The notes under the pieces were generated by a model that saw only the letters and a list, made by a program, of their open reading frames with translations, did not search any database and had not been told where the DNA came from. From positions 1 through 36,669 of IMG/VR virus record IMGVR_UViG_3300006805_000074: a stretch of DNA of 36,669 bases, one strand, 5' to 3'. This document shows, one piece after another, positions 2,499 through 34,809 of the stretch. This DNA comes from a virus. Numbering within the stretch: position 1 is the stretch's first letter; every line of letters begins with the position of its first letter. The translations under genes and the position numbers were made by a program.

Positions 2499-3219
2499 CC
2501 TTGAGGTGTCGAGAGACATTGTAGAAGGTTATGGAAACAAGTGGGAATTTAAGGTAGTCAAAACAATCAGGCATCAAGAACTTATGTGTTTTGCATACAA
2601 GTGGCTTGGTCAACGCAAGGTACATTACGTATCACGACATGACTTCAAAACTTATGGCGAGTTCGTAGAGGCACTATGGCACATCCTCGATGAGGCTGAT
2701 ATAGCTATAGCACACAATGCAAATAAATTCGACAATAAAATGGCGAATAGGTACTTTATACAGTCTGGCTTTGGACCAGTATCAACGTATAAAAGTATAG
2801 ATACACTACAGGTAGCACGAAGTACCTTCAAGTTTCAAAGCAATAGTCTACAAGACCTCTGTGAATATCTTGGACTTGGCAGCAAGCGTAAAATTACGTA
2901 TGCAGACCTAGAAGAAGATTTCATGAGCGAGAAACCAAATCCTAAGACTGAGAGACTTATGAGAGAGTATAACATACAAGATGTTGTACTGTTAGAGAAA
3001 CTTTACATGACACTAAGACCTTACATAAAGAATCACCCTAATATGGGGGATATCTTGCAGGGTATTGGTTTGTGTCCTAAGTGTGGTAGTCCAGACCTCC
3101 GTGTATACGGTACGGCTCCAAGGGCAAACGGCAGAGTGCAAACCTATATATGTAATGTATGTGGCGGACGGTCTAATGATGCAACAATCAAGGGTCGTGG
3201 CAGGGTAGTAAATGCATAG
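2467..3219 (+). CDS. DEDDy 3'-5' exonuclease with C-terminal zinc ribbon
   Basis: A 250-residue RNase H-fold exonuclease of the DnaQ/polymerase-proofreading type. ExoI is LLYDLEVS near the N-terminus, ExoII is AHNANKFDNKM around residue 84, and ExoIII is YNIQD around 171, with the Tyr that marks the DEDDy subtype. Residues about 200-240 add a zinc ribbon (CPKCGSPDL, then CNVCGG), likely for DNA binding. No polymerase domain follows, so it is a stand-alone exonuclease, perhaps for recombination, end processing or host DNA breakdown. ATG 2467 is preferred over 2455 because GGAG lies six bases before it. Confidence 0.8.
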   Translation: MKNQAKILLYDLEVSRDIVEGYGNKWEFKVVKTIRHQELMCFAYKWLGQRKVHYVSRHDFKTYGEFVEALWHILDEADIAIAHNANKFDNKMANRYFIQSGFGPVSTYKSIDTLQVARSTFKFQSNSLQDLCEYLGLGSKRKITYADLEEDFMSEKPNPKTERLMREYNIQDVVLLEKLYMTLRPYIKNHPNMGDILQGIGLCPKCGSPDLRVYGTAPRANGRVQTYICNVCGGRSNDATIKGRGRVVNA

Positions 3220-3496
3220 GGATAAACTATTTGTATACGGTATCTTCTTAGATGCTGGAAATAGGGCAGCCTATGGAATGACAAACCCACAGTATGAAAC
3301 CGTTAAAGGTTACATGACAATAGGTGGGCGAATTGTGCAAGCAGTTCAAGTAAGCGATGAACGTGCATCCCTGACGGGATTACTTGTTGACGTTGACCCT
3401 GAGTATTGGGGCATACTTGACCAGCTTGAGACAGGATACGATAGAATAACAGTAACAACTACCGGTGGGGTAGAGGCGTATATGTACGCAGGATAG
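3212..3496 (+). CDS. Gamma-glutamylcyclotransferase-like (AIG2/GGCT) protein
   Basis: A 94-residue protein with the N-terminal FVYG motif and a later LDQLETGYDR segment, whose Glu matches the catalytic acid of the GGCT/AIG2 fold. The family releases gamma-glutamyl groups as 5-oxoproline or acts on gamma-glutamyl-amine and peptide conjugates. It overlaps the end of the exonuclease by eight bases. Phage GGCT-like proteins often accompany amidoligases and class II glutamine amidotransferases; here both occur, but about 27 kb away on the linear map, so a joint pathway is only an inference. Confidence 0.7.
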   Translation: MHRDKLFVYGIFLDAGNRAAYGMTNPQYETVKGYMTIGGRIVQAVQVSDERASLTGLLVDVDPEYWGILDQLETGYDRITVTTTGGVEAYMYAG

Positions 3497-4453: not shown

Positions 4454-4487
4454 CTACCTAGTGCGAAAGGCAAAGAAAAATGTCTAA
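4326..4487 (+). CDS. Hypothetical 53-residue protein in an overlapping frame
   Basis: ATG 4326 is preceded by GAGGAG about seven bases upstream, one of the best ribosome sites in this operon. The product (MIESIIICKHGNLGYS...) ends in a basic helix (YLVRKAKKNV). It overlaps the 3' part of the Cys-rich ORF in a different frame and runs eight bases into the next gene. Either both ORFs are translated or one is not real; the ribosome site favours this one. Confidence 0.45.
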   Translation: MIESIIICKHGNLGYSASLRFKNKALNAEISSNSKEGIYKTIDYLVRKAKKNV

Positions 4488-4830
4488 GTTTGTAACTAAA
4501 GATTCAGGCAAACGACAAAAGTTCGAGTCCGGTATGGTACGAGACACGCAGGATGGTAAGCCGAGGTACGACCTAATACCAGTTGGTCCTCTCAGGAGAC
4601 TAGCAGAACTATACATGCGTGGTGCTGCCAAATATGACGACAACAACTGGATGAAGGGGCAACCCTACTCCAGGACTTATGCATCCTTATTCAGGCACAT
4701 GATTGCATGGCGCGAGGGTGATAAATCAGAAGATCACTTGGCTGCTGTAGCGTGGAACGCATTCACACTAATGCACTACGAAGATAACAAGCCAGAGCTA
4801 GATGACATTATAGACATCAAAAAATCATAA
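4480..4830 (+). CDS. DUF5664-type dATP/dGTP diphosphohydrolase-like protein
   Basis: The 116-residue protein matches the phage all-alpha NTP pyrophosphohydrolase-like family often annotated as dATP/dGTP diphosphohydrolase: an N-terminal GKPRYDLIPVGPL, then a helix with RGAAKYDDNNW, and a C-terminal SEDHLAAVAWNAFTLMHYE whose acidic and His residues would hold the metal. It probably adjusts deoxynucleotide pools during replication. It starts with AAAGG at usable spacing. No partner for base-modified DNA synthesis (such as PurZ) is visible here. Confidence 0.7.
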   Translation: MSKFVTKDSGKRQKFESGMVRDTQDGKPRYDLIPVGPLRRLAELYMRGAAKYDDNNWMKGQPYSRTYASLFRHMIAWREGDKSEDHLAAVAWNAFTLMHYEDNKPELDDIIDIKKS

Positions 4831-18059: not shown

Positions 18060-19853
18060 TTATTCTGTCCCATATATGTTAGATTGATCTGTAGTTTGTG
18101 TTGTGTAGTCGCCTGTTGGTATTGTTTCCGGATTATATATCTGGTCGCCGTCTATAGGAGAACCTGCAATGATTGTCCCGCCAGGAGTACTGGTTATATC
18201 ATACTTCTCATCGCCTCCACCTTCTGTTCCTCCACTATAGAGGATACCTATTCTAGCAGTAGCTGTTTGTGTTTTCGTTACTGTTATGGCCAAGTACGCC
18301 TTAGCGGTCTGGGTCTTTGTGCAGTCTTGAACGATAGCCGCTTTTGCTGTTTGTGTATATGTTGGTTTTACTTCTATACGGGCTATAGAGCCTTGTGTTT
18401 TAGTAAAACGATTCGCTATATGTGCAACAGCACCTTGGGTTTTAGTAAGTATATGCTGGATTCTTGCTGTAGCTGTTTGTAGCTTAGTAAGGAGTCTTTG
18501 GATTCTAGCTGTTGATGTCTGTGTTTTAGTAACAGACCTTGCAACACGAGCCGTACTTGTTTGTGTTCTAGTTCGTGTATTAGATACCCGAGCTATGGAG
18601 CTTTGTGTTTTTGTAGTTACCTTAGCTATACGAGCTACAGAAGATTGAGTCTTTGTTACTATGTTAGCTATTCGGGCAATAGACGTTTGAGTCTTAGTAA
18701 GTGTGAATACGTTGAAATCGTCGTATGTTACTACTGCACCTGTGTGGCTAGTATTATATGCACCAGCGTCTACGTTTACATATCCCCAGTGTAGCGGAAT
18801 TGGGTTCGCTGTGGACGTGAGGTTAGTCCAAGTGCCTGGTTGATTTGTTCCTGAGTCAGGAGCTGTGTCCCAATAGGTTGTTCCGCCAGATTCTCTAATT
18901 CTTAACCATTGATGGTTAGTAGAGTTGTAGGTCACTGATGAAACTAGTGTTAAGGACGATGCGACTTCCTGATAAGCATGTAATGTGCTATTGGCAATAA
19001 CGAATAATACACGGTTGCCAGTAGAGTTAATAAACTGTAGCGGTTCTGCCTCAATGGGCACGGCCGAGGAGTTTGTATCACTCACCATCCTAATCAACAT
19101 GTATGAGCTTGTGAGGTCGTATTTCAGAACACTCTCTAGCCCATAGTAGTTGGAAGTGGTTGTAGGAACTGTGACAACTAGTTGCCCACCAGTTTCTACT
19201 ACATTACCACCCCCCCAGCTGGACCACTTCGCAGCGTCTAATGAGTTATCATTGAAGTTGTCTATAAGTTTTTCCATCTTTGGGGTAGGAATAAGCTCGA
19301 ATGATGCACCAGATGACACAACAGATGAACCGTTGGCACTTGTAGTGGCTGCAAAGCTTGCAACGCCACCGTTTGTATCTGCTACTATAGAGTACGCAGT
19401 CGTGCCCGTTTGTGTACTACGGAGTGTGGTCGCTCCCGCTAGTGGTGTTCCCTGCGAAGTAGTCTGCCGTGAACCAGCAAAGGCTACTACCCATGAACTT
19501 CCCGATGCGTTAGCTAAACTAAGCGTAGGGATCTTAGCGGTTGTTGATGCTGCTTTAGTAGCACCTCCCACTGTTCCGATTGAACCAACACCACGGTATA
19601 TAATACCATGTACTGTGTTAGCGTTTGTCCAAGTACCGAATGCATCGTTAGTCGCCGTAGCGAACTTATAACCAATGCGATAAGAGTTTGAGTTACCAGA
19701 CTGATTGCTTAGGTTCGTAAACCCAGAACCCAGAGTAGGTGCTGTTGTGGCGTTCCTATATGCTACTACAATTAACAAGTCACCAATTTGGTGCGTTGGC
19801 ATAGTTGCCGTGTTTGCGCCAGCTGAGACCTGGTTAATGTATGAAATAGCCAT
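18060..19853 (-). CDS. Multidomain surface/tail protein with lectin-like domain and 11 tandem TKTQ repeats
   Basis: 597 residues. Residues 1-190 form a Ser/Thr/Ala-rich beta domain seen in phage and bacterial surface proteins. Residues about 195-385 are concanavalin/LamG-like: it opens KLIDNFNDNSLDAAKWSS and continues with typical strands, which suggests glycan binding. Residues 386-539 are eleven exact 14-residue repeats (TKTQTSxARI...), then a Gly/Thr-rich tail. Repeats of this type are, in my recollection, common in CPR-bacterial surface proteins. It probably extends from the virion to contact the host. The repeat DNA is diverged, so it is not a recent expansion. Confidence 0.65.
   Translation of the reverse strand: MAISYINQVSAGANTATMPTHQIGDLLIVVAYRNATTAPTLGSGFTNLSNQSGNSNSYRIGYKFATATNDAFGTWTNANTVHGIIYRGVGSIGTVGGATKAASTTAKIPTLSLANASGSSWVVAFAGSRQTTSQGTPLAGATTLRSTQTGTTAYSIVADTNGGVASFAATTSANGSSVVSSGASFELIPTPKMEKLIDNFNDNSLDAAKWSSWGGGNVVETGGQLVVTVPTTTSNYYGLESVLKYDLTSSYMLIRMVSDTNSSAVPIEAEPLQFINSTGNRVLFVIANSTLHAYQEVASSLTLVSSVTYNSTNHQWLRIRESGGTTYWDTAPDSGTNQPGTWTNLTSTANPIPLHWGYVNVDAGAYNTSHTGAVVTYDDFNVFTLTKTQTSIARIANIVTKTQSSVARIAKVTTKTQSSIARVSNTRTRTQTSTARVARSVTKTQTSTARIQRLLTKLQTATARIQHILTKTQGAVAHIANRFTKTQGSIARIEVKPTYTQTAKAAIVQDCTKTQTAKAYLAITVTKTQTATARIGILYSGGTEGGGDEKYDITSTPGGTIIAGSPIDGDQIYNPETIPTGDYTTQTTDQSNIYGTE
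18237..18698 (-). repeat. Eleven in-frame 42-bp repeats (14 residues each)
   Basis: Reading the - strand from 18698 to 18237 gives eleven consecutive 14-residue units with consensus TKTQT(S/A)xARI plus four variable residues, with no indels. Positions 1-4 (TKTQ) and the ARI block are the most constant; one unit reads TRTQ, one TKLQ and one TYTQ. The copies differ at many synonymous sites, so the period is kept by selection. Confidence 0.95.
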
Positions 19854-21199: not shown

Positions 21200-22051
21200 T
21201 TAGAATGTTCGAGAGATAACAACAGCGTGGTCAGAACGAACGATCTTAGCACCAAACAATGTAGAGCCAGAGATGATGTCGGCTTTCATTAGGATGTTGC
21301 GGTCGTATTCGATTTCTGGCTGCAACTGTACAGCAGCTGCAATAGCTGACTTGTGGATAAGTAGGAACTTAGCCTGTGCAGTTGGAGTAGTACCAGTAGT
21401 AGCGATAGCGTTTGTGACCCAGACAGGCGTGTTGTAGATAGTACCTACGTGGCCGTCTTCGGTTGAAACGAGTCCGTCTTTACCAGTCTTGTCGTACATG
21501 CTGAATTCTGCGATCTTACGGAGGTCAGCAAGACCAAGGCCGTTGACGATCAGTGCACGGTCCGTAGTTGGAACGTTCTTTGAGTCAAGGATTTGGTGTG
21601 CGTCAACGATAGCGTTGAACGTAAGTGCAGCGATAGTAGCAGGTTTGTTACCAGCGTCGAAACCGTTCCATAGTCCAAGGATGTATGTGTCGATTGCGTT
21701 AGCAAGTGCGAACGAGATACGATCAACGTAAGGAGCACGAAGCTCGTAGGCTGATTGTTTCTTAAGCATATCTTGGATACGGACTGGTACACCCTTGTAC
21801 TGGTCGATGACAAGGAGCTGCTCGGTTGGAGTTGCGTCCTGTACAGTCATTTCAGTACCTGGTGTGATTGTCTGTGCTGTCAGTTCTGGGATAGCAACGA
21901 TGTGAACTGTGTCACCTTCGCTAAGAACTGAACTCTCGTATTGGTGGTCAACTGCCTTAAGGGCAACGAGTTTGTTTCGGCGGTTTTCTTGGATGTCTTT
22001 CGCCCAAACTTCGCTAATAAAGTTGGCACCAGTTGTAGGAGTCATAGTCAT
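21200..22051 (-). CDS. Major capsid (coat) protein
   Basis: 283 residues. The N-terminus FISEVWAKDIQENRRNKLVALKAVD and a following GDTVHIVAIPELTAQTITPG are typical of P22-gp5-like/HK97-fold coat proteins of podoviruses. The helix with VPVRIQDMLKKQSAYELRAPYVDRISFALANAID matches the long spine helix. Position after a scaffold-like gene, the strong terminator downstream, and length all agree. It forms the capsid shell. Confidence 0.85.
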   Translation of the reverse strand: MTMTPTTGANFISEVWAKDIQENRRNKLVALKAVDHQYESSVLSEGDTVHIVAIPELTAQTITPGTEMTVQDATPTEQLLVIDQYKGVPVRIQDMLKKQSAYELRAPYVDRISFALANAIDTYILGLWNGFDAGNKPATIAALTFNAIVDAHQILDSKNVPTTDRALIVNGLGLADLRKIAEFSMYDKTGKDGLVSTEDGHVGTIYNTPVWVTNAIATTGTTPTAQAKFLLIHKSAIAAAVQLQPEIEYDRNILMKADIISGSTLFGAKIVRSDHAVVISRTF

Positions 22052-23280: not shown

Positions 23281-25227
23281 TTATCTTGGTCGTGAGCTAG
23301 CGTCTAGCGTTGTGCTAGGTTGGTTTGCCCGGGTACGACGAATGTTATTACTTGAGCTATCAGCTCCGCCACCGCCTTGATTACCCGATTGGGTTCGTCT
23401 ACGCTGGTCGGTTGTCGCTTTTGGGTCAGTTGGAATCTCTCCCTTTAACCTAGCGGCTGCTTCTGGTGTTACCTGAGCATCACCCTGAACCAAGTTAGGG
23501 TCCACAGCCTGTCCATCAGGTCCCATAATAGGTGCCTGTGTAGCTAAGAACTCTTCAATGTCATCCTTTGGCATGTCTGGGAACAAAGCCTCGTACATGC
23601 GTCGCAGGAATACTGCCTGGTTAACTAGTGGGTTGCCTAAGCTGAACTGTGCTGCCACCTGCATCTGTTGTGCCACTGCTGCCTTCTCTGCCTTTACGGT
23701 AGAATCAAGTACAACTCGTGGTTCGTATTCACCAATGTAAGACGTTGGGTCATATTTCTTCCACTCGACACCCTTCGGACCGATTACTCGGACTGCTGTA
23801 GGTGAGTCTACAAAGATTTGAATCATCTTGTATAGAATTTGTGCTAATTGGCTAAATCCTTCGTCTTCTAGGTTTTGTACCTTAGTGGTAAAGCGCATAG
23901 AGGCTTGATTTAGCTGTGCCTGTACTTCTGTAGCAGTAGTACGTGAGAACTTTTGTGATACACCTTGTACAGCGGCATCTGCAGCGGTTGCAGTACGCAT
24001 CTGTTGACGTTGGCGTTCTATCTCGTTATCAGCACTGGCGCTAATGTCCTGCTTCTCAATAGGAGTAAGTGCTCCTCGTGGAATAGGGAAGATAGCTCCC
24101 GGCTCTGATTCGATTTGTTCTGCCAAGTGCTTAAATCGAGGGTCGATCTGCCACATGTTATTGAGTACGTATGCAAGGTTGTCTCGTTTCTGGCTAGCGG
24201 TGTCATTCAATGCTTCCTGTGATGGGATAATTACTTCCACATCGCCACGAGCGAAGAATAGGTTGCTATCTACATAGTTGCGAAGGATAGCAAACGGTAG
24301 GAATCCACGAATTTCAGGGATTATCTTTTCGCCGTTAAACTCTACGCCATTAATCATACCTGATACAGGTACTGTAGTCTCTGGCTTGCTGTAAGGGTTT
24401 TCCTCATCATAGATACAAGTAGTCTTGTTAGCAATCATGATTTTCTTACGGCGAGTAAAGTAAACGACAACTTCGATCTGTTCTTTGTAGGCATCCTTAC
24501 CATAGGTAGAGCCAATAAACTTCTCTTTGCGGTCCTTGTCCATCTCGTCGTCAGTGCCCTCTACGGCAGTAATGCTGTCGAGGTTCTTGTACTTACCAAC
24601 TAGGTTACCGTCTGTATCTGGGACCATCTCTGCCTTAAGCTGTTGAAGGCTAGTAAGGTATCGGTATCCTGCATAGCGAGGGTATCCTGGCTCTTCTGGA
24701 CGGTTCATGTGTGTAGCGGCTGGGTCTACAAAGAAGTCATTTAGCGGGATGTGCTGAATGAGCGGCTTATCGCCCTGCCAGCTGACCATAAGAATACCGT
24801 TACCATAAACGATCATGTCGCCTACCCAGTTAAGTACCTTTTCGGTCGTGTTGTTCTGTGCCCAGTAGAAGTCAACTAGGGCATTGAGCGTAGTTGTGTC
24901 TTTCTCTTGGTCTTCACGAAGTGGAACATATTTAAATTTAGGTTTGCTACCAGCAATGCTGGCCTTGAGCGCTTCTACAATAGAGAAAGTCTCAGGAGCA
25001 AATTCATCAGCAGTACCTTCGTAACCGTGTCGGCTGCGAATGCCATTGTAAGCTTTGAAGCACTCCTCCCACACTTCCTGATAGTTATCTTTTACATACT
25101 TACGAGCTTTATCGTAGTCTGACATGACAACGTTCAGAAGGGCGTCGTATTTGATACCTGACTCGTCAGATTCAGCTACGGCAGGAGTTGTATTCTCGCC
25201 AGATGGCTTTTTAGGGTCTTTATACAT
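23281..25227 (-). CDS. Portal protein, P22-like
   Basis: 648 residues. Typical portal features: an N-terminal helical clip with SDYDKARKYVKDNYQEVWEECFKAYNGI, the wing segment WVGDMIVYGNGILMVSWQGDKPL, DFFVDPAATHMNRPE, and a later helix QQMRTATAADAAVQGVSQ where the crown helix is expected. The C-terminus is Gln/Gly/Ser-rich and probably disordered. It forms the dodecameric DNA gate and binds the terminase. Its start overlaps the terminase stop (TAATG), giving coupled translation. Confidence 0.85.
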   Translation of the reverse strand: MYKDPKKPSGENTTPAVAESDESGIKYDALLNVVMSDYDKARKYVKDNYQEVWEECFKAYNGIRSRHGYEGTADEFAPETFSIVEALKASIAGSKPKFKYVPLREDQEKDTTTLNALVDFYWAQNNTTEKVLNWVGDMIVYGNGILMVSWQGDKPLIQHIPLNDFFVDPAATHMNRPEEPGYPRYAGYRYLTSLQQLKAEMVPDTDGNLVGKYKNLDSITAVEGTDDEMDKDRKEKFIGSTYGKDAYKEQIEVVVYFTRRKKIMIANKTTCIYDEENPYSKPETTVPVSGMINGVEFNGEKIIPEIRGFLPFAILRNYVDSNLFFARGDVEVIIPSQEALNDTASQKRDNLAYVLNNMWQIDPRFKHLAEQIESEPGAIFPIPRGALTPIEKQDISASADNEIERQRQQMRTATAADAAVQGVSQKFSRTTATEVQAQLNQASMRFTTKVQNLEDEGFSQLAQILYKMIQIFVDSPTAVRVIGPKGVEWKKYDPTSYIGEYEPRVVLDSTVKAEKAAVAQQMQVAAQFSLGNPLVNQAVFLRRMYEALFPDMPKDDIEEFLATQAPIMGPDGQAVDPNLVQGDAQVTPEAAARLKGEIPTDPKATTDQRRRTQSGNQGGGGADSSSNNIRRTRANQPSTTLDASSRPR

Positions 25228-26960
25228 TATCTTTTACCATTCTTTATTTTTTTAGTCTTACTGCTTTTAGTAACATTAAGTCCTGTAACGTCGTTATCTC
25301 CCCATAGGAAGAGTTGGAACGTAATAGCCTTAGCCATTACTGTATCGTCATGTTCTCCCTCTTCTGCGTTTGTACGTCCACGAGCATCTCTGACGTAAGA
25401 GAAAGCCTCTTCAATGAACACCTTATCTGGGTCCTTGTTGATACCTTCACGTATAATCTTAATAAGTGTGTCAATAGCGGTACGTTTAGACCGCATGTCT
25501 GTTTTCCAACCAAGGTGACTAGTCGGCTCCTCAAAGTCCTCGTCATATCCGCTCTCTCGTTTATAGAGGTTCGTATAGAACGTGTCCCTGAGCTTCTGAA
25601 TAGTTGTGAGTCCGTGGTTATTTACTTCAACTCCAATAAGTGCGTAGTTATAGTACGTTCCAAGAGCCGCAAGTATTTCGCCGAATCTATCCGGGTCACA
25701 CTTTCCTCTCCATCGAGCAACTGTCTCCATTGTGCTTGTATTAACAACTTCGGCAACTGAATAGTCTCCAGTGGCAAGCCCTTCTGCAACATCAGCTCCG
25801 ATAGCATACTCAACACCATATTGAGGCTCCTGCCATATTTTGAGTGGTCCATTATTCTCCTTAATTCTTGCATCATAAGGTACCGGTGAGATATAGTAAT
25901 CTTCATTACTCTCTCCAGTAACAATCTCATAATGTTTAGTCTCTGAGATTTCCTCAGCCTGTCGCTCTAGGTTTTCAAGTTCCAATACTGGGAATACGTT
26001 AGCACCACTAGCGATAAACGCTTCATGGCTTGTACTCGGGTATTCCTGGAACATTCTCTCAGGTGTGCTTGCAAAGTCTTTTGCCTTGCTCCTGTAGAAC
26101 TTAAGCTTGCGGTATGCCTCTTCTTGTGCTATAAGGAACTTCTCACCAAAGCGAGTAGTGTATCCTTCTTCCATAAGCTTCATAAGCATCTGTTCATATT
26201 CGTTGAGATCACCGATTGGCTCCTCATCGTCTATTTCGTACTCATCAATGAGCCACCAAGGGAAAAAGAAAGGAACAAAGTTGTTCTCACCCTTCTCTGC
26301 GGCTCGCCACTCCTTGTGGAAGTAGTTGCCACGTCCTTTAGCTGTTGACTCAAGGAAGATCATTGTGTTAGGAAGGAAAGGAACTGTCTGCATGATTGAT
26401 GCAACTAGTTCTTCTCCGTTTTCCCATTCTCCAACCTCTGAGGCGTGTAGACACTGGATAGTATCTGAACGTCCGGCAGAGCTGTTCTTTGCAGTTGCGG
26501 TCTTGATGTAACTTCCCAAGCCAACTTGGTTACCTCCATCATCATATCGTTCAAAAGAAAGATCAGTTCTGGTATTGTATTTGATTGTTGGTTTGAATAG
26601 GGGGTTGCTATTATCGTAGTACCGGCGGAACATCATATAGAGGTTCTTTGCGGAAGTCTCTTCGTGCCCAATAATGACACTGTTGATGTTCTTGTTAGTA
26701 CTAGTCCACCAGTAAATAAGAGACTCTACTGCAGTAGATAGTCCCATCTGACGGGCTTTAAGGATAATAACTCTAATAGGTACTCCCTGCTGTATGCACC
26801 ACAGCACGTAGTCTATAAGTGCCCGCTGAGGCTTATTAGGTTCAAAGTTGACAATCTGAGCATTCTTGTTCTTGATGAACAGATTATTCTTTGCAAACCT
26901 ATAAAAGTCTTTGCGGATATCAAGTACTTTCTGCAACTGCTCTGGTGTGAGCTGTTCCAT
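25227..26960 (-). CDS. Terminase large subunit
   Basis: 577 residues. ATPase half: variant Walker A KARQMGLST (about residue 78), Walker B-type MIFLESTAKG (about 205). Nuclease half: the three acidic motifs IGADVAEG, GVEVNNHG and a late EHDDTVMA. This is the two-domain motor that cuts and packages DNA into the prohead. It precedes the portal gene. The nearest match by motif is the P22/T4-type family. The C-terminus is basic (KSSKTKKIKNGKR). Confidence 0.95.
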   Translation of the reverse strand: MEQLTPEQLQKVLDIRKDFYRFAKNNLFIKNKNAQIVNFEPNKPQRALIDYVLWCIQQGVPIRVIILKARQMGLSTAVESLIYWWTSTNKNINSVIIGHEETSAKNLYMMFRRYYDNSNPLFKPTIKYNTRTDLSFERYDDGGNQVGLGSYIKTATAKNSSAGRSDTIQCLHASEVGEWENGEELVASIMQTVPFLPNTMIFLESTAKGRGNYFHKEWRAAEKGENNFVPFFFPWWLIDEYEIDDEEPIGDLNEYEQMLMKLMEEGYTTRFGEKFLIAQEEAYRKLKFYRSKAKDFASTPERMFQEYPSTSHEAFIASGANVFPVLELENLERQAEEISETKHYEIVTGESNEDYYISPVPYDARIKENNGPLKIWQEPQYGVEYAIGADVAEGLATGDYSVAEVVNTSTMETVARWRGKCDPDRFGEILAALGTYYNYALIGVEVNNHGLTTIQKLRDTFYTNLYKRESGYDEDFEEPTSHLGWKTDMRSKRTAIDTLIKIIREGINKDPDKVFIEEAFSYVRDARGRTNAEEGEHDDTVMAKAITFQLFLWGDNDVTGLNVTKSSKTKKIKNGKR

Positions 26961-30683: not shown

Positions 30684-31982
30684 ATGAGTGAATTAACGGC
30701 AACAGATGTGGCTATCGAGCAAATAAAGAAGGCTGGGTTTTCGCATATTAAGGTAGAGCTAGAGGCAGACCTCGGTAGGGACGGAGAGCGTGAGTGTAGC
30801 GATTGTGATGATGGCTATAGCGATTGTGATGAGTGTAATGGGGACGGTGTTCTCATGGCAGAGCGTCCAAACGGTACAGAGGTAGAAGTAGAATGTGATG
30901 AATGTTACGGCGAAGGTCGTGTAGAATGTGGCTATTGTGATGGCAGGGGTTACGACGGTGGTTACTACGACGAAGATTACTGTGAAACATTTATGCGTGA
31001 TTGGGTAGGCTCAGATGTACTGAGTAGGCTCACCTATGGTAACTTTTACGAAGATGGTAGTGTAGACAGTGAGTTTACGTTTACTGTACCTATCGAACAC
31101 TACAAAGATATTGTAGTCTGGATTGACAGCTTTAAGGCACTATCCGAGGACATTGGTAACGGATACAATACAGGTGGAGCAGGTATGCACATCTCTCTGA
31201 TACCAAAAGAGAGCAACGGTAACTATCCAAATAGACACCGTATGCCAGATGACAAGATAGAAAACTTTGCAGAACAGATGAGCAAGCTGTTACCAGCCAT
31301 GCTATTCTTCTCAAGCAATAATGAGGTAAGTCGTGGACTGAGTTATAGGACACCACAAGTGTCTCACGACGAGAAGTACAGCGCAATCTATACTCACGAC
31401 GGTACTTGTATTGAATACAGGGCTTTCGAGACCTGTTACGACGAACCAGAACGTATCTATGAACATATAGAGGTAGTAGCAAAGACCCTACAGTTCTATG
31501 TAGACCCTACTAAAACAGTAGAGACTATGGGCTTTAGATTTAACTTCTCAGATTCTTATAGCGGTCAAGAGGGGAGACAGCTTAGTCGATTCTATGACAC
31601 ACCAGAGAAAATTGCGGTATTGCGCAAACAGCTTAAATATATCAAGCCTGATGGCAAGAGCAATGCAGAGCTTATGGCACAACGTGGCGTATCTGGTATA
31701 ACAGACTTGCGTAAAAAGATAAGCAAGAGACGTAACCAATTGCGTAAGCAATACTTTAAGAGTATGGCGATGATAAAGATACAAGAAAAAACACCACTGA
31801 CGGAACGGCAAATGATTCACCTTGAAGAACTCAAACAATACTCTCGTCGCTACAGTGAGAATTTGGACGAGCAACAGATGATTGACCAAGCAAAGGGTAT
31901 CAATCGCTTGCCAGACTTAGAAACATATATTAAAAACAACCTAGGCTCAAACGAGGGTCGTGGTTATACGGCATATTGCTAG
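30684..31982 (+). CDS. Glutamine synthetase-like amidoligase with internal zinc-finger domain
   Basis: 432 residues. It carries the marks of the phage/bacterial amidoligase family (GS fold, ATP-dependent amide bond formation): VELEADL (24-30), DGSVDSE (124-130), GGAGMHIS (164-171) and IEYRAFET (243-250), which supply the metal- and ATP-binding acids, His and Arg. Between the first and second motifs lies a DnaJ-like Cys domain with four CxxC pairs (C38/41, C48/51, C71/74, C82/85) and Gly-rich CxxCxGxG units. The rest (about 310-430) is basic and helical. The class II amidotransferase follows 16 bases later, so the two probably work as ammonia or amine supplier and ligase. The substrate is unknown. 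Confidence 0.8.
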   Translation: MSELTATDVAIEQIKKAGFSHIKVELEADLGRDGERECSDCDDGYSDCDECNGDGVLMAERPNGTEVEVECDECYGEGRVECGYCDGRGYDGGYYDEDYCETFMRDWVGSDVLSRLTYGNFYEDGSVDSEFTFTVPIEHYKDIVVWIDSFKALSEDIGNGYNTGGAGMHISLIPKESNGNYPNRHRMPDDKIENFAEQMSKLLPAMLFFSSNNEVSRGLSYRTPQVSHDEKYSAIYTHDGTCIEYRAFETCYDEPERIYEHIEVVAKTLQFYVDPTKTVETMGFRFNFSDSYSGQEGRQLSRFYDTPEKIAVLRKQLKYIKPDGKSNAELMAQRGVSGITDLRKKISKRRNQLRKQYFKSMAMIKIQEKTPLTERQMIHLEELKQYSRRYSENLDEQQMIDQAKGINRLPDLETYIKNNLGSNEGRGYTAYC

Positions 31983-31986
31983 AAAC

Positions 31987-32001
31987 GGAGAATGACTTAT
32001 T
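31987..32001 (+). promoter_or_regulatory. Ribosome site that decides an ATT start
   Basis: GGAG at 31987-31990 lies eight bases before ATT (31999-32001), which is directly followed by TGC for the catalytic Cys. An in-frame TGA at 31993-31995 rules out any earlier start. The ATG at 31992 in another frame is too close to GGAG and opens a frame of only 14 codons. Confidence 0.75.
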
Positions 32002-33237
32002 TGCGGAATTGTATATGTAAACAGCTACAGGGGTAAATCTGTAAGCAAAATGGTTAAACGTGCTTATAAAGCACAACGTAACCGAGGTCATGAGGGGTTT
32101 GGTTTTTACACACCAGAGAATAACCGATTGACACACAACACTGAGGAACGCAACATTATGCGGTTACTCAAGCGAGAACGACAGAGTGAGATTCTTTTTC
32201 ACCACCGTTTTCCAACTAGTACAGAGAATGTACGGAACGCTTGTCACCCGTTCAGCACTAAAAACCGATGGGACAATAACTATGTTATGGTTCACAACGG
32301 CGTTGTATGGAATGACTTCGAAGTTGCAAAGAAGCAGGTAGAGGACGGTATCCGTTATGTATCTTACCAGCCAAATGGCAGCTACAACGACAGTGAAGTA
32401 CTGATGTACGACATTGCACGATACCTAGAGGGTGAAGTAGACCAACTATCAGTAGAGGGTAGTATCGCCTTTATCATGGTACAGCGTAACAAAAAGGGCG
32501 AAAAAGTTGCACTATACTTTGGTCGCAACAGTGGCTCACCACTCAAGCTAGAGCGAAGTCCAGATGGGTTTGCACTAACATCAGAAGGTGTATCACCAGA
32601 TATCAAAGTTAATACCTTGTACAAGTTTGACTACAAGAGTCAGGAGTTTTCAGAGTCACCTCTGGACATCCACTACTACACCTACAGCCAAAACTCAAGT
32701 GGTAAAGCTGGGAACTATTCAGCAGGCAACTACAACTATGGCGACTACCGTGGTTATGGCAACGGTTACAAGTGGAACGGCAGAAACTACGAAGATGCAG
32801 AGCTTTCAGAAGAAGCTCGTGAAATTGCGGATTACAATGCAGGTTATGGTGCTAATTATACGACACCAATGGTTGAAGATACGCTAGACCGTTACGGCAA
32901 CTATGGTCGTTATGGGCTAACAGACGAGACACAAGAGCAAGCAGAGAGTATCATCATTGATGAGATTATCGAAGGACTAAAGTACGATACCTACCAAGGT
33001 AGTACACGAGATATGCTGGAGTTCGGCGAGATACTACTTGATGAGTTACAGACTAAGTATATGTTTTTGGAGAACAAAATCCGAGAGGACGGCGATCTAT
33101 CTGGGCAAGATATTGATGACTATGAGGAACTTGATAATAAGATTCTACTACTCACTAAAGCGCTTAATCAGATAACCGAGAAACAGCTACGACTTGCGCT
33201 ACAAGCAACTAACGTAAGGTACACACCAGACCACTAA
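31999..33237 (+). CDS. Class II glutamine amidotransferase (Ntn hydrolase), ATT start
   Basis: With the ATT start the protein has 412 residues and begins M-C-G-I-V-Y, the N-terminal nucleophile Cys2 of the glutaminase family. Other motifs: RNRGHEGFG (27-35), HHRFPTST (68-75), HNG (99-101, oxyanion hole) and, later, NSGSPLKL with LTSEG. It releases ammonia from glutamine. The C-terminal half holds a Tyr/Gly/Asn-rich low-complexity linker (about 230-260) and charged helices, not a synthetase domain, so the ammonia probably goes to a partner, likely the amidoligase just upstream. The first ATG (32050) would delete the catalytic Cys. Confidence 0.85.
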   Translation: MCGIVYVNSYRGKSVSKMVKRAYKAQRNRGHEGFGFYTPENNRLTHNTEERNIMRLLKRERQSEILFHHRFPTSTENVRNACHPFSTKNRWDNNYVMVHNGVVWNDFEVAKKQVEDGIRYVSYQPNGSYNDSEVLMYDIARYLEGEVDQLSVEGSIAFIMVQRNKKGEKVALYFGRNSGSPLKLERSPDGFALTSEGVSPDIKVNTLYKFDYKSQEFSESPLDIHYYTYSQNSSGKAGNYSAGNYNYGDYRGYGNGYKWNGRNYEDAELSEEAREIADYNAGYGANYTTPMVEDTLDRYGNYGRYGLTDETQEQAESIIIDEIIEGLKYDTYQGSTRDMLEFGEILLDELQTKYMFLENKIREDGDLSGQDIDDYEELDNKILLLTKALNQITEKQLRLALQATNVRYTPDH

Positions 33238-33250
33238 GAAAGGATAGGTA

Positions 33251-33745
33251 ATGTCAAAAGATTATAAAGTGAAATATAAAGATGTGTATATCTTTGCACA
33301 TATTACACAGTACATTTTGGGACAAGAGCTATTACAGGAAGTGGAGACACCTTTTCAAGATAAAGATGGGACACATATTAATGTTCGCTTTAGGACTAAC
33401 TCGGTCAGGGGCTACGGTCGTAGAAACTGGCAGCGTGACGAACTAGAGCGCAACAGGGGTATGGTGGTGAGCATTGAACTTGCTGGCACACCAAAGCTAG
33501 TGGGTGTCTATAGTCCAAACAAGAAAATGGTTGAGATGTTCAAGACTGGCACACTAGGCGATATCAAGAACGATATTGTGGACGACATTATATCACATCT
33601 TGAGTACAACAACGTAAACATGGAAGTATCAACAGACGAATCAAAGCGTATAAAGTTAGAAAAACGCTGGGTTGCTGGGGATAGAATCCAAAGAGAAGGA
33701 GGACGAAGTGGATACAGAGACGAATCCGACTACACCGACGACTAA
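33251..33745 (+). CDS. Hypothetical protein in the amidoligase operon
   Basis: 164 residues. The N-terminal part is beta/alpha (VYIFAHITQYILGQELLQ, HINVRFRTNS), the middle is MVVSIELAGTPKLVGVYSP, and the tail is Arg/Asp/Glu-rich and probably disordered. AAAGGATAGGT precedes the ATG. It lies 13 bases after the amidotransferase, suggesting a linked role, but no family is recognised. Confidence 0.6.
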   Translation: MSKDYKVKYKDVYIFAHITQYILGQELLQEVETPFQDKDGTHINVRFRTNSVRGYGRRNWQRDELERNRGMVVSIELAGTPKLVGVYSPNKKMVEMFKTGTLGDIKNDIVDDIISHLEYNNVNMEVSTDESKRIKLEKRWVAGDRIQREGGRSGYRDESDYTDD

Positions 33746-34625
33746 CGAAACAGAAATACATCAAGCAATAATGGATGCAGAAGAATATATGCGAACATCT
33801 ATGGCAAGTAGAGCTGGAGGAGTATGGGACATTGATGCACTTGAGGAAATCATGTCATCAGAAGATGTGCCACCTACACCACCATCACCATACGGAGAAC
33901 GTATACAAGCGATGTGGCATAATGGGACAGATGAGCTAGAGTATAGAGACATTACGACGACAAGTGAAGAGCCTGCGTGGTCAGAGGTTACAGACGGTCA
34001 ATACCGTGTAGCCGTTGAGCTAGACGAATCACTTGCAGTACCTGCCATGGAATACTATAACAGGGCGCAACGTCGAGCTATGGCACGAAGAAACAATGGA
34101 TTCAATGCGTTTGAGTTTGCTCAAGAGTACGGTAGTGATGTCATAAACCCATTTGGTAGTAGTGTAGTAGAAGAAGGAAAGGAAGTAAACGTGAAAAATA
34201 AAAGTAAAAACAAACGTCTTGCGGAATGGAGCATCTCTGCTAGGGCATTGAAAGATATGATTAACAGAATTGTAGAAGAAGGTCAGTCACCACAACGAGC
34301 CGACTTTTTCAGTGCATACAAGTTTGGTGCATACTTCGCCCCTAGATACCGCCGATGGTTTATCTATAACAAAGCAACAGCTAATAACATAGCAACAATT
34401 AAAGTAAGCGACGGCAGACTGATTGTCAGGTATCGACCTAACTCATTCTATTCAAGCGTCTTGTCTGATATACAAGTCGAGAATGTCAAGACAATAGCAG
34501 TCGAAAGTGCTAACATGCACAGACACAACCGCTTAGTCAGTGGATATTCAGATGATATTGAAGCAAGTAAAGATGGCGAAATGCGCTTTAGGAAGGAACG
34601 ATATGCTCGAAAACATAACCGATAA
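33708..34625 (+). CDS. Hypothetical protein with NRAQRRAMARR motif, GTG start
   Basis: 305 residues. GTG 33708 is chosen over the TTG at 33672 because AAGGAGG lies five bases before it. The N-terminal 100 residues are acidic and Pro/Thr-rich; NRAQRRAMARRNNG in the middle is a short phrase common in phage proteins and may bind nucleic acid or a partner. The C-terminal part (about 165-290) is a folded alpha/beta-like region. It overlaps both neighbours. Confidence 0.6.
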   Translation: MDTETNPTTPTTNETEIHQAIMDAEEYMRTSMASRAGGVWDIDALEEIMSSEDVPPTPPSPYGERIQAMWHNGTDELEYRDITTTSEEPAWSEVTDGQYRVAVELDESLAVPAMEYYNRAQRRAMARRNNGFNAFEFAQEYGSDVINPFGSSVVEEGKEVNVKNKSKNKRLAEWSISARALKDMINRIVEEGQSPQRADFFSAYKFGAYFAPRYRRWFIYNKATANNIATIKVSDGRLIVRYRPNSFYSSVLSDIQVENVKTIAVESANMHRHNRLVSGYSDDIEASKDGEMRFRKERYARKHNR

Positions 34626-34809
34626 CATGAACGAGGACGGACAAGAGGGTATTTGGTATTCTTATATCAAAGACATGGAAACATTTAGGGTTCGATTACT
34701 AGAAGGTAGGTACACAGTGTTCTCTTCTAATGGCGAGACCATGAATCTTACTAAAGAAGATGTCGCAAGTATTGTACTTAGAGAAGTAAAGGATGAGACA
34801 ATCGAATGA
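34603..34809 (+). CDS. Hypothetical protein
   Basis: 68 residues starting MLENITDNMNEDG. ATG 34603 is preferred because GGAAGGA precedes it by five bases; the upstream part of the frame lies inside the previous gene. A beta segment (RVRLLEGRYTVFSSNGETMNL) resembles the small strand-rich products in this operon. ATGA overlap with the next gene. Confidence 0.55.
   Translation: MLENITDNMNEDGQEGIWYSYIKDMETFRVRLLEGRYTVFSSNGETMNLTKEDVASIVLREVKDETIE

Follow-up and report, generated by a model that had tools for sequence, protein, structure and literature searches.

A predicted glutamine synthetase-fold amidoligase with a DnaJ-type zinc finger is encoded beside a class II glutaminase in a phage early region

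Locus and genome context

The window analysed here, that is, the whole stretch of DNA under study, is a virus record of 36,669 bases without end repeats. Its minus strand carries the packaging and head genes, comprising the terminase (25227-26960), the portal (23281-25227) and the major head protein (21200-22051), and its plus strand holds the early region. As near-complete terminase relatives of the phage measure 42-45 kb, about one fifth of its genome is probably absent from the contig. Two adjacent plus-strand genes encode a divergent amidoligase of 432 amino acids, predicted to adopt the glutamine synthetase (GS) fold (30684-31982), and a class II (Ntn) glutamine amidotransferase (GATase) that starts at an ATT codon (31999-33237). 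The first-pass annotation had read them as a GS-like amidoligase next to a class II glutaminase, a reading borne out by fold, conserved residues and gene neighbourhood. Three open reading frames located immediately 3' of the glutaminase gene (33251-34809) had no convincing match in Pfam, PHROGs or relatives, the only hits being weak ones in L130 and L054. Further upstream, positions 4480-4830 encode a dATP/dGTP diphosphohydrolase-like N-terminal domain, a nucleotide-pool enzyme (PF18909, 4e-25).

A divergent amidoligase with a predicted GS fold

Sequence searches placed the window amidoligase outside the available amidoligase models. Neither the window protein nor 12 clade members matched PF12224 in Pfam up to E 0.1, a search of the genome for PF12224, in which the controls stayed silent too, gave no hit, no PHROGs amidoligase matched it, tblastn against 50,697 annotated phage records returned nothing, and the phage-amidoligase HMM assigned it 0.1 bits. 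In direct searches, the window protein matched nothing beyond the zinc finger of L001, a protein that is dissimilar elsewhere, a more distant ligase of the clade found one record in the phage collection with coverage of the finger only, and a scan of bacterial genomes yielded 85 pattern matches with no relatives among them. Homologues of the enzyme include L055, L127-L132, L139, L140, L142 and L144.

An AF2 model built from eight homologues (pLDDT 76.6, pTM 0.69) returned glutamine synthetases as its best PDB matches in Foldseek (E 5.7e-6, prob 1.00), among 28 matches with E ≤ 0.001. VIA-align superposed the model on glutamine synthetase with a Z of 14.1 (rmsd 4.4, 258 residues aligned), reported 215 chains with Z ≥ 8 and placed gamma-glutamylmethylamide synthetase among the top fold neighbours. 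Matches to a viral library at E ≤ 0.001 were an unnamed protein (1.4e-5) and an uncultured-phage 'Amidoligase enzyme' (4.0e-4). An hhalign comparison of the clade with 18 classical phage amidoligases gave a weak match (prob 20.9%, E 0.0011) in which the motifs of the two groups line up. Like glutamine synthetase, YbdK and gamma-glutamylmethylamide synthetase, the window ligase combines the modelled GS fold with an ExE strand, a GAGMH motif and an E-x-R motif, which we take to be equivalent to the motifs of the GS family; unlike these enzymes, to which it is 8-14% identical in the Foldseek alignments, it carries a finger insert and has a separate glutaminase partner.

Conservation within the clade, sampled at 12 or more members, singles out the presumed active site. 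In an alignment of 12 members (A5), which are 27-44% identical to the window amidoligase, the ExE strand, DGSVDSE, GAGMH and the R...R...KYSAI...ExRxFxTCY stretch are all retained with minor variation. Residues E25, E27, D124, S126, D128, E130, H169, N194, R217, R222, E244 and R246 are invariant in 12/12 members, one S-to-T exchange excepted, and may include the metal and ATP ligands of a GS-type centre; the metal-site residues that were expected alongside the GS fold are candidates by conservation. Judging from the model, the gene product is a GS-fold amidoligase, and one that would act like PF12224 enzymes yet fails the PF12224 model.

A DnaJ-type zinc finger within the ligase

Residues 38-95 of the amidoligase (30795-30968, plus strand) form an insert of the DnaJ/BSD2-type CxxCxGxG zinc-finger kind, placed after the ExE strand and ahead of the DGS strand and containing four CxxC pairs (cysteines 38/41, 48/51, 71/74 and 82/85). 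Its Pfam matches, PF25436 (1.5e-4) and PF00684 (0.0016), both fall below the curated cut-off, the latter model, the DnaJ central domain, scoring 19.1 bits vs a cut-off of 32.7. A profile of the 12-member clade, however, matched DnaJ and BSD2 chains with E 6.4e-6 and 7.8e-6, respectively, and it is on this match together with the cysteine pattern that we base the likeness to DnaJ. All eight cysteines are present in 10/12 members; L055 has seven, the ligase of L142 carries an expanded finger, and L140 lacks the insert while retaining every other checked residue. Because of this last case, we regard the finger as an optional addition to the loop that follows the ExE strand, outside the catalytic core. 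A search of the open-licence literature found no phage amidoligase described as carrying a zinc finger of the DnaJ type.

The DnaJ/BSD2 cysteine-rich fold binds polypeptides, and the finger may point to a protein substrate instead of a wall precursor. In such a scenario, which we consider rather unlikely, the pair would use the finger as a substrate reader, holding a polypeptide as DnaJ or BSD2 does, and would amidate or tag a host or virion protein, not a wall peptide. The match of the insert to DnaJ/BSD2 cysteine-rich domains, its retention in 11/12 members, its position between the ExE and DGS strands, its expansion in one member and the Cys-rich N-terminal regions seen in the ligases of L146 and phage ctUh1700 would all fit this explanation; the finger-less L140, in turn, indicates that the finger is unneeded for the chemistry, and zinc fingers have other roles, such as nucleic-acid binding or the mere stabilisation of a loop.

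Cys-rich N-terminal regions of another sort occur in classical-type amidoligases (L146, 4772-6007; L046, 2814-4868), so phage amidoligases may have acquired zinc-binding parts more than once.

The glutaminase and its ATT start

The downstream gene (31999-33237, plus strand) was assigned on the basis of its family match, residues and fold. It scored 35.0 bits on PF13522 vs a cut-off of 27 (E 1.7e-8), resembles GlmS and PurF by sequence, and its model (pLDDT 68.1 overall) superposes on PurF with a Z of 23.0 (rmsd 2.4, 210 residues). Residues C1, R28, G29, H68, R69, T72, H82, H98, N99, G100 and D130 are present in all seven aligned members. Like the glutaminase domain of GlmS and PurF, the protein shows the Ntn fold and the catalytic residue set; unlike these enzymes, it is a stand-alone glutaminase without a synthase domain, in which the glutaminase domain spans approximately residues 1-222 of the mature form and is followed by a C-terminal extension of its own that is mostly helical. 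PHROGs returned no entry named as a glutaminase, only a weak match (0.0025) to phrog_13807, which is of unknown function, and a more distant glutaminase of the clade found two records in the phage collection.

The open reading frame delimited mechanically starts at the ATG at 32050 and thereby omits the catalytic cysteine. An in-frame ATT (31999-32001), 16 nt past the ligase stop codon, immediately precedes TGC-GGA-ATT (Cys-Gly-Ile), with the catalytic Cys codon at 32002-32004, and a Shine-Dalgarno-like GGAGA (31987-31991, plus strand) lies 7 nt 5' of it. Among 18 relatives, the glutaminase gene starts with ATG in 13 cases, ATT in four and ATC in one, the starts other than ATG, GTG or TTG being those of L133-L136 and L144. 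Since the in-frame ATT precedes the cysteine, GGAGA lies upstream and relatives have ATT or ATC at the same place, we read the coding sequence as 31999-33237, with ATT 31999 as the true start by the sequence criteria given here. The four relatives with ATT form a close group whose ligases are just 37-39% identical to that of the window, indicating that the ATT start is either old or has arisen twice. Translation of the glutaminase may be coupled to that of the ligase. Gene callers limited to ATG, GTG and TTG start the gene at 32050, dropping the catalytic residue.

Two other accounts of the start were rejected. A sequencing error does not explain the ATT, given that four other contigs have ATT and one has ATC at the same codon; and the nearby ATG at 31992 lies in another frame and has no counterpart at that position in G020.

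Pairing and distribution

Homologues in which the two genes never occur together would have spoken against a functional pair. At related glutaminase loci in IMG/VR, the amidoligase lies directly upstream in 18/18 cases, comprising 13 loci of this clade (with the ligase of L141 cut by the contig edge) and five of the classical type. These loci were retrieved from the glutaminase side, so the pairing was not built in by the query. Complementarily, the glutaminase was adjacent in 6/6 of the amidoligase-side matches among those listed. The operon structure is tight, with a ligase-glutaminase gap of -13 to 28 nt in 17/17 measured pairs, and the distances among the ligases follow those among the glutaminases (r 0.93 for 17 pairs; 0.54 for nine non-redundant clade members, Mantel p 0.002), gap and correlation being taken from a set that omits G048, in which the gene is split over the contig ends, and the edge-cut L141. 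Adjacency and the residues kept across ligases 27-44% identical to that of the window argue against a chance pairing.

The pair is not a fixed component of the phage lineage. It was found in none of the first 17 terminase relatives of the window and in two of the 27 records of a second, widened terminase set (two of the 27 being shared with the first); further homologues came from scans that used alignments of the ligase and of the glutaminase. The early region varies, and the pair is an accessory module in it.

Profile searches of 13 clade records revealed no COOH-NH2 ligase in any of them and an ATP-grasp protein in four; neither was found in the window, which is an incomplete contig. Exact repeats at the ends mark four genomes of the clade as closed (G019, G048, G049 and G050), and the cassette content that they share, within reach of the profiles used, is the pair alone: G019 and G049 additionally have a gamma-glutamyl cyclotransferase (GGCT)-like gene, G050 has the ATP-grasp protein, and G048 has neither.

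The location of the pair among early genes would also suit a step in nucleic-acid modification, namely the amidation of a modified base, and 7-deazaguanine chemistry includes steps carried out by certain relatives of class II GATases. QueC (PF06508) and thymidylate synthase-type proteins (PF00303) were, however, absent from all ten records searched, some of which are incomplete, while controls matched in 12/14 and 9/14 cases, and we regard this explanation as highly improbable.

The GGCT-like gene

A gene for a GGCT-like protein (GGACT), likewise predicted in the first-pass annotation, was recovered at 3212-3496 on the plus strand, scoring 26.8 bits on PF06094 vs a cut-off of 22.8 (8.2e-6). 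The family searches proposed there succeeded for PF13522 and PF06094, both above cut-off, and failed for PF12224. The YG motif and a Glu are present in 12/12 aligned GGACT sequences; which Glu is the catalytic one is our assumption. In six relatives (G019, G020, G042, G043, G047 and G051), the GGCT gene lies upstream and its frame runs into that of the ligase, whereas in the window the gene lies far from the pair and unlinked to it within the contig.

The proposed association of this gene with the pair held up. PF06094 scored above cut-off in 11/17 glutaminase-bearing records vs 0/12 terminase relatives that lack the pair (Fisher p 4e-4), a p value that is indicative and overstates independence, since the 17 records and 12 controls share ancestry. 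The window GGCT is tied to the pair via this co-occurrence only.

GGCT acts on free gamma-glutamyl compounds, and its co-occurrence with the pair would be in line with a small-molecule pathway in nitrogen or glutamine metabolism, in which a gamma-glutamyl amide or modified amino acid is made and recycled and GGCT closes the cycle. We judge such a pathway fairly improbable. The presence of gamma-glutamylmethylamide synthetase among the top fold neighbours of the ligase would fit, but the fold discriminates poorly because glutamine synthetases of all sorts make up most of the GS-fold neighbours, and the pair persists in the closed genome G048, in which the profiles used detected no GGCT.

Comparison with known cassettes

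The pairing of an amidoligase with a GATase is already known from many phages. Genes of the same kinds are clustered in phiEco32, Pseudomonas phage clash, PA11, BUCT695, RIO-1, Vibrio 1.208, Privateer, KZY1, phiM6, Shrooms and Alcaligenes QDWS535, and the ligase of the Alcaligenes phage has matches in 327 phage records and the glutaminase in 350. A Porphyromonas phage has the ligase with no GATase within the 8.4 kb read. The cassette of phiEco32, LUZ24-like phages, PA11, RIO-1 and phiM6 comprises an amidoligase, a class II GATase, a COOH-NH2 ligase, an ATP-grasp protein and GGCT, the cassette genes being enumerated in a passage of PMC3890496. A role in wall modification had been pointed to from the literature, and such a proposal does exist: a passage of PMC5498523 terms the genes a peptidoglycan modification cassette and proposes that it acts against superinfection, and a passage of PMC10580990 likewise carries the proposal of a wall-modification role against superinfection.

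Like the phiEco32-type cassette, the clade described here has its amidoligase and class II GATase adjacent or clustered among early genes, together with GGCT. Unlike that cassette, its window ligase lies beyond the reach of tblastn and PF12224 and carries the DnaJ-type finger, and its records lack the COOH-NH2 ligase and mostly the ATP-grasp protein. What is new is a divergent sub-clade: outside the amidoligase models, with a DnaJ-type finger and no COOH-NH2 ligase. Manatee Spring phage ctUh1700 (MW202637.1) is similar to the window in having the pair near the terminase genes and a Cys-rich N-terminal region, and the annotation of the stretch read lists no further cassette gene, but its amidoligase has a classical core, scoring 106 bits on the phage-amidoligase profile vs 0.1 for the window.

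MurT is a Mur ligase and GatD a class I GATase. The window pair resembles MurT/GatD of S. aureus in coupling a glutaminase with a ligase and differs from it in the folds of both partners. In a passage of PMC3267633, peptidoglycan amidation by MurT/GatD is described as the work of a glutaminase and ligase pair that amidates a carboxylate.

Proposed function

We propose, at roughly even confidence, that the two enzymes constitute a glutamine-fed amidation module whose likeliest target is a host envelope peptide. Support for the chemistry of the module is good, its wall target being a proposal. The pair would be expressed from an accessory slot adjoining the packaging genes. Going by its family, the Ntn glutaminase would cleave glutamine via its N-terminal cysteine and pass the ammonia on to the ligase, which, as expected for a GS-fold amidoligase, would use ATP and metal to convert a carboxylate through an acyl-phosphate into a primary amide. 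Alternatively, an amine replacing ammonia would give a gamma-glutamyl-type bond, and, where present, the GGCT-like enzyme would remove or recycle gamma-glutamyl products. The modified group may be a peptidoglycan stem-peptide carboxyl, so that the cell surface or lysin susceptibility would be altered in infection, by analogy with what has been proposed for the phiEco32-type cassette. The glutaminase could also act alone.

Hundreds of phage records contain the amidoligase-GATase pair, and the stripped-down clade, with four closed genomes that have the pair alone in common, offers a minimal two-protein system for the chemistry. Such pairs are probably under-counted, because the models miss the ligase and the AUU start hides the catalytic end of the glutaminase.

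Host lead

Terminase relatives at 42-62% identity come from MAGs with diverse labels, namely Cardiobacteriaceae, Dependentiae, Runella and Saccharibacteria. The window also encodes a small transglycosylase-like protein (1192-1743), which matched 14 of 192 sampled genomes from the phylum of a Saccharibacteria MAG vs one of 200 from the phylum of a Cardiobacteriaceae MAG, the sole match in the latter falling in the very MAG that has a phage of this family on one of its contigs. This distribution hints at Patescibacteria as the host of the window phage. L151, a phage contig of 39.8 kb with a terminase 62% identical to that of the window, is binned with a Cardiobacteriaceae genome, and in view of the Patescibacteria lead, its binning may be an error.

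A wider reading would join several of these strands. A new clade of GS-fold ligases would read a polypeptide via the grafted DnaJ-type finger and amidate a protein carboxylate with ammonia drawn from glutamine, in phages that are maybe those of Patescibacteria, with the AUU or AUC start of the glutaminase used through coupling to the ligase; taken as a whole, we find this combination quite doubtful and continue to favour amidation of an envelope peptide.

A putative tail protein is encoded at 18060-19853 and contains numerous near-identical short repeats of the type TKTQTxxARI.
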